Shown here one piece after another: positions 9,165-11,816 of a stretch of 11,816 nt of DNA. The DNA lies in assembly GCA_002344625.1 (NCBI GenBank), contig DDUE01000015.1:1-11816 (forward strand), in the 5' to 3' direction. The translations under genes were made by a program, and so were the position numbers. Every line of letters begins with the position of its first letter. Position 1 is the first letter of the stretch. The notes under the pieces are model-generated. The model was not told the origin of the DNA, ran no database searches, and worked only from the letters and a program-made list of their open reading frames with translations. This DNA comes from Rhodocyclaceae bacterium UBA2346 (lineage in GTDB: Bacteria > Pseudomonadota > Gammaproteobacteria > Burkholderiales > Rhodocyclaceae).

Positions 9165-9193
9165 ATTGTTCCACCGCCGCCCGCGTAATGCAA
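9165..9193 (-). promoter_or_regulatory. Candidate sigma-70 promoter for the binding-protein operon
   Basis: On the minus strand TTGCAT (plus 9188-9193) and AACAAT (plus 9165-9170) are separated by 17 bases, about 50 bases before the start codon at 9112. Agreement with consensus is only 3/6 and 4/6, so this is a weak guess from position and spacing. Confidence 0.25.
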
Positions 9194-9206
9194 ACTTGTA
9201 ACCGGC

Positions 9207-9235
9207 TTGTCTCGGCGCGGAATTTCGGTTATCAC
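9207..9235 (+). promoter_or_regulatory. Candidate sigma-70 promoter for tag-lysR
   Basis: TTGTCT (9207-9212) and TATCAC (9230-9235) are separated by exactly 17 bases and each matches the consensus at 4 of 6 positions. The site lies 40-68 bases upstream of the tag start in the divergent intergenic region (9113-9274). The -10 element overlaps the left side of an inverted repeat. Confidence 0.35.
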
Positions 9236-9259
9236 GTGGCGAAAACAAGCCACGAACCG
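9226..9259. promoter_or_regulatory. Bulged inverted repeat over the tag promoter and leader
   Basis: CGGTT (9226-9230) and CGTGGC (9235-9240) pair with GCCACG (9249-9254) and AACCG (9255-9259). The loop is GAAAACAA and four bases, ATCA, are unpaired on the left. It overlaps the candidate -10 box and ends 15 bases before the tag ATG. It could be an operator or a leader-RNA hairpin. No T-run follows on either strand. Confidence 0.4.
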
Positions 9260-9274
9260 GCCGGGAGTCCCCGC

Positions 9275-9862
9275 ATGAACTGTCGCTGCGCCTGGGTGGG
9301 CGAAGATCCGCTCTACATCGAATACCATGACCGCGAGTGGGGCGTGCCGGTGCGCGATCCACAGCGGCTGTTCGAATTCCTGCTGCTGGAAGGCGCCCAG
9401 GCGGGGCTGTCGTGGCTCACCGTGCTGAAGAAACGTGCCCGCTATCGCGAGGTCTTCGAGGGTTTCGACCCCGCCAGGGTCGCGCTTTTCGATGATGGGT
9501 ACAAGGCGCGGCTGCTTGCCGATCCGGGCATCATCCGCAATCGCGCCAAGGTTGACGCGGCGATCGGGAATGCGCGGGCATGGCTCGAACTGCAGCGGGA
9601 AGGTATCGACCCGGCTGCCTGGCTGTGGGGTTTCGCCGGTGGCGTGCCGCGGCACAACGCGCCGGCCAGCCTGGCCGACGTGCCGGCCGCGACGCCCGAG
9701 TCGGTCGCGATGAGCAAGGCACTGCTCGGGCGCGGCTTCAAGTTCGTCGGTCCGACCATCTGCTACGCTTTCATGCAGGCGGTCGGCATGGTCAACGACC
9801 ACACCACCGACTGTTTCAGACAGCGCCAGGTGGCCGCGCTGTCGGTGGTGCCGCGGCCATGA
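9275..9862 (+). CDS. tag: DNA-3-methyladenine glycosylase I
   Basis: The 195-residue base-excision repair enzyme removes 3-methyladenine from alkylated DNA in the cytoplasm. The sequence follows E. coli Tag (187 residues) closely: CAWVGEDPLYIEYHD near the start, LEGAQAGLSW (38-47) and GFKFVGPTICYAFMQA (154-169). The zinc ligands known for E. coli Tag (C4, H17, H175, C179) correspond to C5, H18, H176 and C180, all present. The glutamate of the LEG motif, Glu39, matches catalytic Glu38. ATG 9275 is preceded by GGGAG at a normal distance. An in-frame reading from 9188 adds 29 residues absent from the family and crosses the promoter region. Its stop overlaps the regulator start as ATGA, so the two genes are coupled. 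It is divergent from the peptide-binding protein gene. Confidence 0.97.
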   Translation: MNCRCAWVGEDPLYIEYHDREWGVPVRDPQRLFEFLLLEGAQAGLSWLTVLKKRARYREVFEGFDPARVALFDDGYKARLLADPGIIRNRAKVDAAIGNARAWLELQREGIDPAAWLWGFAGGVPRHNAPASLADVPAATPESVAMSKALLGRGFKFVGPTICYAFMQAVGMVNDHTTDCFRQRQVAALSVVPRP

Positions 9863-10740
9863 GCACCTCCTTGCGCAGGGTGCCGCCGCTGCATGCGCTG
9901 GCCGCTTTCGAAGCGGCTGCGCGCCTGTCCGGCTTTGCGCAGGCCGCGCAGGAGCTGTGTGTCACCCCCAGCGCGGTGAGTCACCGCATTCGCCAGCTCG
10001 AGGCCCAGCTCGGCATGAGCTTGTTCGATCGCGGCCCCGGCGGGGTCCGTCTGACCACGGCCGGGCGGATGTATCTCGACAACGTGCGCGAAGCGTTCGA
10101 CAAGCTGGCTCAGACGAGCGGCGTGCTCAGCCCGCCGGCGCGCGAGCGGCTGCGCGTTTCGGTACCGCCGACCTTTGCGCGCCAGTTGCTGATGGCGCGC
10201 CTGCCCGAGTATCTGCGCCTGCATCCGGAGGTCGAGCTCGAGGTGCACCTGTCGATTCCGTTGCAGGACGTCACCGCCGAAGCGGCCGATGTGGAGGTGC
10301 GGTGGGGGCGTGGCGATTACCCGGGCCGTGACGCGGTGCGCCTGTTCGCTGACGTGGTGCTGCCGCTCGCCGCGCCCGCCTACGTGGCCGAACTCGGTTT
10401 GCAGGCGCCTGCCGATCTGGGCCGCGCCGTCTTGCTGCGCTCGCCTTTGCTGCCCTGGCGGACCTGGCTGGAAGCGTGCGGCCAGACGCGCGGCGAGCCC
10501 GAACAGGGGGCGGTGTTCAATGATCTGGGGATGCTGTTCGAAGTCGCGGCGGCCGGGCTCGGCGTGGCGATGGGCACCCGCCGCCTGTCGGCCGCCTGGG
10601 TCGACTCCGGGCGGCTGGTGCCGCTCTTCGGCTTGACCGCGGCGTCACCGTTCGACTACTACGTCGTGACGACACCGCAGCAGGCCGCGCGCTCGGCCGT
10701 CGCCGATTTCACCGACTGGCTGGCGGCGGCGCTGGGCTGA
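9859..10740 (+). CDS. LysR-family transcriptional regulator, GcvA-like
   Basis: The 293-residue protein has the standard length of LysR regulators. The winged helix-turn-helix covers about residues 11-70: LHALAAFEAAARLSGFAQAA, then VTPSAVSHRIRQLEAQLG, then LFDRG and RLTTAGR. These features are typical of the GcvA/AmpR-like branch (RxVPPLxALxAFEAAAR opening). The substrate-binding domain covers about 95-293. The effector is unknown. ATG 9859 overlaps the tag stop (ATGA), so it is made from the same message. LysR proteins usually control a divergent neighbour; here the first gene upstream is tag on the same strand, and the divergent target could be the peptide importer starting at 9112, which is only a suggestion. 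Tag in other bacteria is generally constitutive, so control of tag is not implied. Confidence 0.93.
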   Translation: MSTSLRRVPPLHALAAFEAAARLSGFAQAAQELCVTPSAVSHRIRQLEAQLGMSLFDRGPGGVRLTTAGRMYLDNVREAFDKLAQTSGVLSPPARERLRVSVPPTFARQLLMARLPEYLRLHPEVELEVHLSIPLQDVTAEAADVEVRWGRGDYPGRDAVRLFADVVLPLAAPAYVAELGLQAPADLGRAVLLRSPLLPWRTWLEACGQTRGEPEQGAVFNDLGMLFEVAAAGLGVAMGTRRLSAAWVDSGRLVPLFGLTAASPFDYYVVTTPQQAARSAVADFTDWLAAALG

Positions 10741-10843
10741 GCGATAGCCGCCGCGGGTCGTACCGGGTCCGCTCATTGGCCCGTCTTCGGCATGCCTCAA
10801 GTCTCCGCGCGGTCGTGTGCATGGCCGCCTCTCACGAGCCGTC

Positions 10844-10860
10844 CGGCACCGTCTGTGCCG
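10844..10860. other. Perfect 6-bp hairpin in the lysR-TIR gap
   Basis: CGGCAC (10844-10849) and GTGCCG (10855-10860) flank a 5-base loop and are followed by CAAAAA on the plus strand. It may end the tag-lysR transcript, but without a T-run it is not a canonical terminator on either strand. The rest of the 214-base gap (10741-10954) holds no credible gene. Confidence 0.3.
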
Positions 10861-10873
10861 CAAAAACGCGACC

Positions 10874-10902
10874 TTGATTGTGTCTCGATCGAGTGCAATA
10901 GT
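10874..10902 (+). promoter_or_regulatory. Candidate promoter for the TIR gene with embedded palindrome
   Basis: TTGATT (10874-10879) and AATAGT (10897-10902) are 17 bases apart, and each matches the sigma-70 consensus at 4 of 6 positions. They lie in the most AT-rich patch of the gap, about 50 bases before the TIR-protein ATG. The spacer contains a perfect 10-base palindrome, CTCGATCGAG (10884-10893), placed where a repressor or activator dimer could act. Confidence 0.4.
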
Positions 10903-10954
10903 GAAATCCGGGGCGGGGCCGCAGGCGGCCCGGACGACTTGACAGGAGCATCGC

Positions 10955-11816
10955 ATGGCCTACGTCGGTTCGCCGTTCGTGCATGACGTGTTCGTGAGCT
11001 ACAGCCATGGCGACGATGGCAGCGGGCAGAGTTATCTGCAGCCGTGGTCGCTTGCGTTCGCGCGCGAGCTCGAGCGGGAGTTGCGTTCGGATCGACGCTT
11101 TCGCCAGGACCTGCGGCTGTTCCTGGATGACAGCCACCGGCCGGGGCAGGGAATCGATCCGATGGCGCCGCTCACCGACCAGTTGCGCGACGAGATCGGC
11201 GCGAGTGCGATCCTGGTGGTGCTGATGTCGCCCGACTATCTCGCGTCGAAGTGGTGTGCCGACGAGCGCGACTGGTGGTGCGAGCGCCAGTCGGCGCTCG
11301 GGCTGGCCGCCGACGAGCGCATCGCGGTGGTCAGGATCTGGCCGACCGGCGGCGAGCCCTGGCCGGCTTCGCTCGTCGATGCGCGTGGTCACCCGTTGGT
11401 CGGGTTTCCGTTTTCGGAGCCGGTGGGGGGGAGCGACTCGCACCGTCCGCTCGGATGGCTCGAACTGCCCGGTCCGTTCTCGATCGCCTTTCGCAAGGCA
11501 ATGATCGCGATCGTCGGCAGGCTCTACCTGCGTCTCGATGCGTTCCGGGCCACGCTCGAAAGCCGCCAGCGGGCGGACGCGGAACGCGCGCGCCTGGGCC
11601 GCGACGGCGGGCAGACGATCTATCTGCACGGGCGGGCCGACCATGCCAAGGCTTGGGAAGCGGCCGGGATGGCATTGATCGAAAGTGGCTACGCGGTCGT
11701 GCCGGGCGAGCCGGACGCGGTCGAGCATGACCCGAAGAGGCTGCAAGGCGTGCGCGAGCGCCGGGTCGAGGCATTGTGCGGCTGCGATGCCTTGCTGCTG
11801 CTCGGCACCGACGACG
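10955..11816 (+). CDS. TIR-domain protein with second alpha/beta domain (3'-truncated)
   Basis: This reading frame is open to the window edge: 287 codons and no stop. ATG 10955 has AGGAG about 7 bases upstream. Residues 10-130 form a TIR domain. HDVFVSYSHGDD (10-21) is strand A and the first loop, LRLFLDDSHRPGQGI (53-67) is the BB-loop region, and SAILVVLMSPDYLASKWCADE (84-104) holds the conserved WCxxE, in which Glu104 corresponds to the catalytic glutamate of NAD-cleaving TIR enzymes. After a linker with an amphipathic charged helix (about 195-216), residues 220-287 begin a second Rossmann-like unit: TIYLHGRADHAKAWEAA, ESGYAVVPGE, then CDALLLLGTDD. I do not recognise it by name. Proteins of this general build often continue into STAND-type NTPase or repeat sensor regions, which cannot be seen here. 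NADase activity and a role in anti-phage defence or signalling are inferred from the family. Confidence 0.88.
   Translation, partial: MAYVGSPFVHDVFVSYSHGDDGSGQSYLQPWSLAFARELERELRSDRRFRQDLRLFLDDSHRPGQGIDPMAPLTDQLRDEIGASAILVVLMSPDYLASKWCADERDWWCERQSALGLAADERIAVVRIWPTGGEPWPASLVDARGHPLVGFPFSEPVGGSDSHRPLGWLELPGPFSIAFRKAMIAIVGRLYLRLDAFRATLESRQRADAERARLGRDGGQTIYLHGRADHAKAWEAAGMALIESGYAVVPGEPDAVEHDPKRLQGVRERRVEALCGCDALLLLGTDD

Follow-up and report, generated by a model that had tools for sequence, protein, structure and literature searches.

The window analysed here, an 11,816-nucleotide stretch of a Rhodocyclaceae contig, closes on the 5′ part of a gene for a TIR-domain protein with a second alpha/beta domain (Table 1). 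The question raised by this locus is whether that protein works alone or as one part of a larger system, and what such a system may do. The preliminary description, made from the letters of the window, left room both for a standalone NLR-like protein and for a gene that opens a defence operon.

Table 1. Coordinates of the TIR gene and its parts within the window
Feature	Position	Strand	Remark
5′ part of TIR-alpha/beta gene, first 287 codons of ~369	10955..11816	+	run of N from 11817
AGGAG, Shine-Dalgarno-like, 6 nt ahead of ATG	10944..10948	+	direct sequence reading
TIR domain, ~residues 10-175	10982..11479	+	
WCADE motif (W100-C-A-D-E104), putative catalytic Glu104 at 11264-11266	11252..11266	+	
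Long linker helix, residues 177-214	11483..11596	+	AlphaFold2 model
C-terminal alpha/beta domain start, residue 221 onward (to ~368 in P0001)	11615..11816	+	AlphaFold2 model

The open reading frame (10955-11815, plus strand) supplies 287 aa and is open at its 3′ end; full-length relatives of the protein have ~369 aa. Its truncation had been put down to the end of the contig. In fact the contig totals 12,216 bases, with 280 N beginning at 11817, and beyond this scaffold gap the match to the same TIR protein picks up again at residues 285-325. Because the protein matches flanking the gap overlap at residues 285-288, its stated size is probably a placeholder. The suggestion that the gene has its own promoter found no support: a scan of 10700-11000 for the sigma-70 consensus gave 0 sites, a result that leaves room for promoters of other types. 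With gene names assigned by eye, a LysR-type regulator-like ORF (end 10740) separates the TIR gene from an upstream glycosylase-like gene in the window (9188-10955), whereas in the related locus L002 (L002:2345-3204) the glycosylase-like gene directly precedes the TIR gene.

Relatives with sequence downstream of the TIR gene were available at eight loci, namely L002 and seven others from the bacterial family of the host. At all eight the next gene encodes an nSTAND1 ATPase, joined to the TIR gene by a 4-nt stop/start overlap (ATGA or GTGA); at L002, a Zoogloeaceae MAG contig with 90% identity, the GTG start of the partner overlaps the TIR stop in this way. The two genes also occur together. 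The TIR gene has a patchy distribution: of 395 genomes from the bacterial family, 9 have it (the window's own included), and of 68 genera, 5. A close partner, at 51-95% identity and with E no higher than 1e-189, was detected in the eight TIR-gene genomes besides the window's own and in none of the other 386; the next-best match anywhere had E 8e-77 and 38% identity. At most two candidates were scored per genome, so that additional copies may have escaped. The window's own assembly, which is 53% complete, gave no close nSTAND1 partner, because the scaffold ends inside the TIR gene.

Two further comparisons argue for the pairing. Among the matches listed, 24 of 120 TIR clusters (24 of the 70 whose longest contig is at least 3,500 bases) have a longest contig of exactly the same size as that of one of the 119 listed nSTAND1 matches with lengths; with the sizes displaced up or down by 1 to 10 bases, the 20 offsets gave 0 to 3 coincidences each. 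For these 24 TIR/nSTAND1 pairs the distance matrices correlate with r 0.858, a value reached in 0 of 5000 permutations and to which common descent of the hosts contributes. On the equal contig sizes, the correlated distances and the joint presence across the 395 genomes we reject a chance neighbour, and on the partner gene standing next at 8/8 loci a standalone TIR protein. We conclude that the TIR and nSTAND1 genes very probably form a real, conserved two-gene module. Of the two options left by the preliminary description, the operon is thus the one supported, an nSTAND ATPase downstream being what it had named as supporting evidence; the standalone NLR-like protein is not, since STAND is encoded by a gene of its own.

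The partner at L002 matches PF20703 with E 5.8e-72 and 243.8 bits (cut-off 27.1), and this family was found in 62/62 partners. All 62 share a P-loop of the GxSGxGKSS type and a DQFEE motif (G56, S58, G59, G61, K62, S63, S64 and D149-E153). The predicted fold matches ORC/CED-4-type AAA+ proteins, in a comparison that hardly covers the C-terminal domain, to which the Pfam scans assigned no family. A single membrane helix and a coiled coil are predicted. A TM-like segment is present in 61 of 62 aligned partners, compared with 89 of 1240 shuffles, with Lys+Arg at 5.4 before it and 2.6 after. Beyond this segment C698 and C704 occur in 62/62 partners, and 61/62 have no other Cys past residue 560. 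Because the Walker motifs, the TM-like segment and the downstream Cys pair are all conserved, the sequences suggest an ATPase in the cytosol and, at the C-terminus, a sensor predicted to lie in the periplasm. This topology rests on hydropathy and charge, and the Cys pair is not necessarily disulfide-bonded. Relatives P0264 and P0268 bear additional C-terminal sequence, that of P0264 being weakly Ig-like (Cep192_D4, E 3e-6, below cut-off).

For the window protein, the preliminary description of a TIR domain with a WCxxE motif held up well. Both TIR_2 (PF13676, E 7.1e-7, residues 12-109) and TIR (PF01582, E 4.7e-6) pass their Pfam cut-offs. Across 67 aligned homologues W100 and C101 are invariant (67/67) and E104 is kept in 66, the exception having Gln; S92, D58 and the SYSH stretch are, like Glu104 and W100, invariant or nearly so. 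The TIR part matches the TIRs of RUN1 and SPARTA, which are NAD-cleaving. The window TIR is probably an NADase-type, NAD-destroying enzyme.

The second alpha/beta domain, placed from about residue 220 on first inspection, also appears in structure prediction. The AlphaFold2 model of P0001 (99% identical to the window protein, full length at 369 aa; 67-row alignment) has a mean pLDDT of 90.6, and its residues 221-368 form five alternating strands and helices. The proposal that this is a degenerate second TIR is plausible, not proven: the domain has no family in the Pfam scan and a profile comparison with the N-terminal TIR gave no significant match. In structure comparison a nucleoside deoxyribosyltransferase (NDT) comes out best, level with unrelated alpha/beta folds; that a family is missing from such match lists does not show that it is unrelated. 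The domain is thus a candidate for either an NDT/DRHyd or a degenerate TIR fold. When it served as the only query, the best 120 of 243 matching proteins carried no Pfam domain besides TIR, although for many of them no domains were precomputed. Mean conservation is 0.763 in the C-terminal domain versus 0.755 in the TIR core. One observation from a more distant locus bears on its nature: in the upstream ORF of L071 (L071:3-1409), Pfam TIR_2 matches the C-terminal domain (residues 335-414) and not the N-terminal one, which hints at a TIR-like character of the proposed coupling domain at the C-terminus.

The surroundings of the module are mostly ordinary. Searches of the order (1/399 genomes) and of the phylum (1/398 genomes) each recovered the window's own genome only, which marks the cassette as rare; Pseudomonas, Halomonas and Thioalkalivibrio are among the holders named in the protein list. 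Plasmid and phage records matched no relatives, and among 81 pattern matches in viral contigs none was a relative; transport as mobile-element cargo is rejected as far as these collections reach. Ten flanking ORFs at five loci encode monomeric isocitrate dehydrogenase, glutamate dehydrogenase, an M50 peptidase, RtcB, MnmG/GidA, an enoyl reductase, two proteins without a family and, at L027, a Trypsin_2/TPR-S protein and an alpha/beta hydrolase. The last two lie directly downstream of the pair on the same strand (L027:4520-7155); the trypsin/TPR-S protein is the only one of the ten that looks defence-like, with weak PADLOC matches to protease-bearing models (E 1e-7 to 1e-4). Because the flanks are ordinary apart from L027, we make no defence-island argument, and no third conserved gene is evident in the flanks examined. 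That the flanks are mostly housekeeping genes weighs against the model given below, as do the lack of plasmid, phage or viral-contig matches and of a convincing PADLOC match.

How might the two proteins work together? Gene 1 would supply a cytosolic TIR effector of the NADase type, with its C-terminal alpha/beta domain as the docking part. Gene 2, translationally coupled to it, would supply the nSTAND1 protein, an NLR/AAA+-like ATPase that would have one membrane helix, a coiled coil and, in the periplasm, a C-terminal sensor bearing the Cys pair. The periplasmic domain would register an event at the envelope, whether an entering phage, damage or an attack by contact; the ATPase would then oligomerise in the membrane and gather TIR proteins via their C-terminal domains, and the clustered TIR domains would cleave NAD+, leading to growth stop or cell death before an invader multiplies. 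The cassette probably acts as a switch for defence or cell death that is NLR-like and targets NAD+, and it possibly senses at the envelope. To the whole sequence of steps, a split NLR-like suicide or dormancy module running from envelope signal through ATPase oligomerisation and TIR clustering to NAD+ cleavage, we assign a probability of roughly 0.6. A bolder version is tentative, and we would lean slightly against it: a membrane-embedded split NLR whose nSTAND1 protein senses outside the cytoplasm via a periplasmic domain with a disulfide and sets off a TIR NADase that is a separate protein in the cytosol, the two coupled by a C-terminal domain of the TIR superfamily. In this version nSTAND1 proteins as a class would be trans-membrane immune receptors, in line with the hydrophobic segment seen after the ATPase in the two TIR-fused and four other nSTAND1 proteins described below.

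Bacterial NLR-like defence proteins have mostly been studied as cytosolic sensors of phage proteins produced in the cell. If our reading is true, the cassette would be an early-warning NLR variant able to react at the envelope. The two-gene layout allows sensing, ATPase assembly and NADase activity to be tested apart. Since the Pfam scans placed neither C-terminal domain in a family, these domains would be sensor and coupling parts of a new sort.

Known systems resemble the module in parts. PADLOC gave no convincing match, its weak P-loop or TIR matches being ThsB for the window protein (E 0.037-0.076), mad8 for the L002 partner (E 0.0035), mad3 for P0225 (E 2.9e-5) and mad8 for P0164 (E 6.5e-4). 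The best NCBIfam match of the TIR part is FxsC_Nterm (NF040588, E 3.7e-10), a likeness to FxsC of the FxSxx-COOH system that stays at 40 bits, below the model cut-off of 130. Thoeris sets a ThsB TIR beside a ThsA effector, whereas here the neighbour of the TIR gene is nSTAND1 at 8/8 loci. The TIR-NLR of P4-like satellites likewise combines a TIR effector with a STAND NTPase, and its authors propose NAD+ degradation; as described in the accessible part of that paper (PMC9122126) it is a single TIR-STAND-TPR polypeptide with C-terminal TPRs, in contrast to two genes with a predicted membrane helix and periplasmic domain. More generally, single-protein STAND defence of the TIR-NLR/Avs type has its effector fused, whereas here separate genes overlap by 4 nt at 8/8 loci.

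That effector and STAND can be encoded in separate genes is already in print, since the accessible text of PMC8195603, which names nSTAND1, describes a bDLD3-STAND-FGS gene beside a bDLD3-TIR gene as a two-gene STAND conflict system with a shared adaptor. The likeness lies in a TIR effector and a STAND ATPase encoded apart in one neighbourhood; the difference is that the bDLD3 proteins both carry the same death-like domain, whereas coupling here would fall to the alpha/beta domain of the TIR protein. The partner appears to leave no room for an N-terminal adaptor, because nSTAND1 begins at residue 17, and Pfam matched no EAD or death-like domain on the TIR protein or the partner, a scan that a diverged adaptor pair could escape. 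Thiohalocapsa STAND proteins, some with sensors predicted to be periplasmic, share that aspect of the partner; in the portion of PMC10907252 available they combine NACHT and C-type-lectin domains with hypermutation and no split TIR is described, in contrast to nSTAND1 and a separate TIR. DUF4062/Swarozyc proteins are presented in the available part of PMC13174449 as TIR-like NADases, DUF4062 being said to resemble TIR and NDT; the idea of a TIR-superfamily NADase is common to both, but neither the window protein nor P0001 has a DUF4062 match. A TIR/nSTAND1 pair with these domains was not met in PADLOC 2.0.0, NCBIfam 20, Pfam or the literature covered, subscription journals being mostly outside its scope.

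A possible objection is that the same biochemistry serves an envelope-stress or kin/contact response rather than anti-phage defence, with a damaged membrane, the toxin of a rival or contact with non-self as the trigger. The predicted periplasmic sensor, the extra C-terminal sequence of P0264 and P0268 (weakly Ig-like in the former) and the chromosomal housekeeping neighbours all fit such a switch. We consider it rather unlikely, given the patchy presence of the TIR gene and a TIR-STAND architecture otherwise known from anti-phage systems (PMC9122126, in the part available).

The other objections concern the enzyme. ThsB in Thoeris makes an ADP-ribose-type messenger, and the window TIR might likewise yield such a signal, to be bound by the second alpha/beta domain or the ATPase, with no depletion of NAD+ by the TIR itself. 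A weak NCBIfam match to ThcB4 of Thoeris type III (19.6 bits, cut-off 220) leans this way, as does the C-terminal domain, which may bind a small ligand because its fold is Rossmann-like and it is conserved as highly as the TIR core. A ThsA-type effector gene, however, adjoins the TIR gene at none of the eight loci, the partner being an nSTAND1 protein with a TM segment and coiled coil, and we regard a signal-making TIR as distinctly improbable. Many TIR domains serve as scaffolds, and NAD cleavage by the window TIR is putative; the Gln in place of Glu104 in one homologue would suit a catalytically idle scaffold or adaptor, with the ATPase alone signalling. The near-invariance of Glu104, W100, S92, D58 and the SYSH stretch makes this a very improbable account.

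Related layouts occur more widely in the bacterial family. Its 395 genomes gave 18 further, distant nSTAND1 matches (36-41% identity), and 17 of these loci were examined (L054-L068, L070, L071). An ORF with a WCxxE-type motif precedes the nSTAND1 gene in 15 of the 17 (L066 is cut off and L071 lacks the motif), with a 4-nt overlap in 12. The upstream ORFs are TIR-like and longer (~470-505 aa), with two further alpha/beta domains; Pfam TIR_2 was found in all four scanned, and that of L056 has a DUF4062 match, below cut-off, in its middle domain. The C-terminal domain of these longer proteins aligns in register with that of the window's family, a comparison (hhalign P 0.0015, probability 17%) that is suggestive only. 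WD40 was found in the one distant nSTAND1 protein scanned, the L056 partner, and a hydrophobic segment follows the ATPase in 4/4 other nSTAND1 proteins and in the two TIR-fused nSTAND1 proteins looked at. From the distant nSTAND1 genes that follow TIR-like ORFs, separate TIR and nSTAND1 genes therefore seem to be a recurring layout in the family, beside fused TIR-nSTAND1-WD40 proteins. The latter share TIR and PF20703 with the module and differ in being single proteins with a WD40 C-terminus; one (L005, G000:C47:32081-33349) lies in the window's own genome and another (L010) in a close relative.
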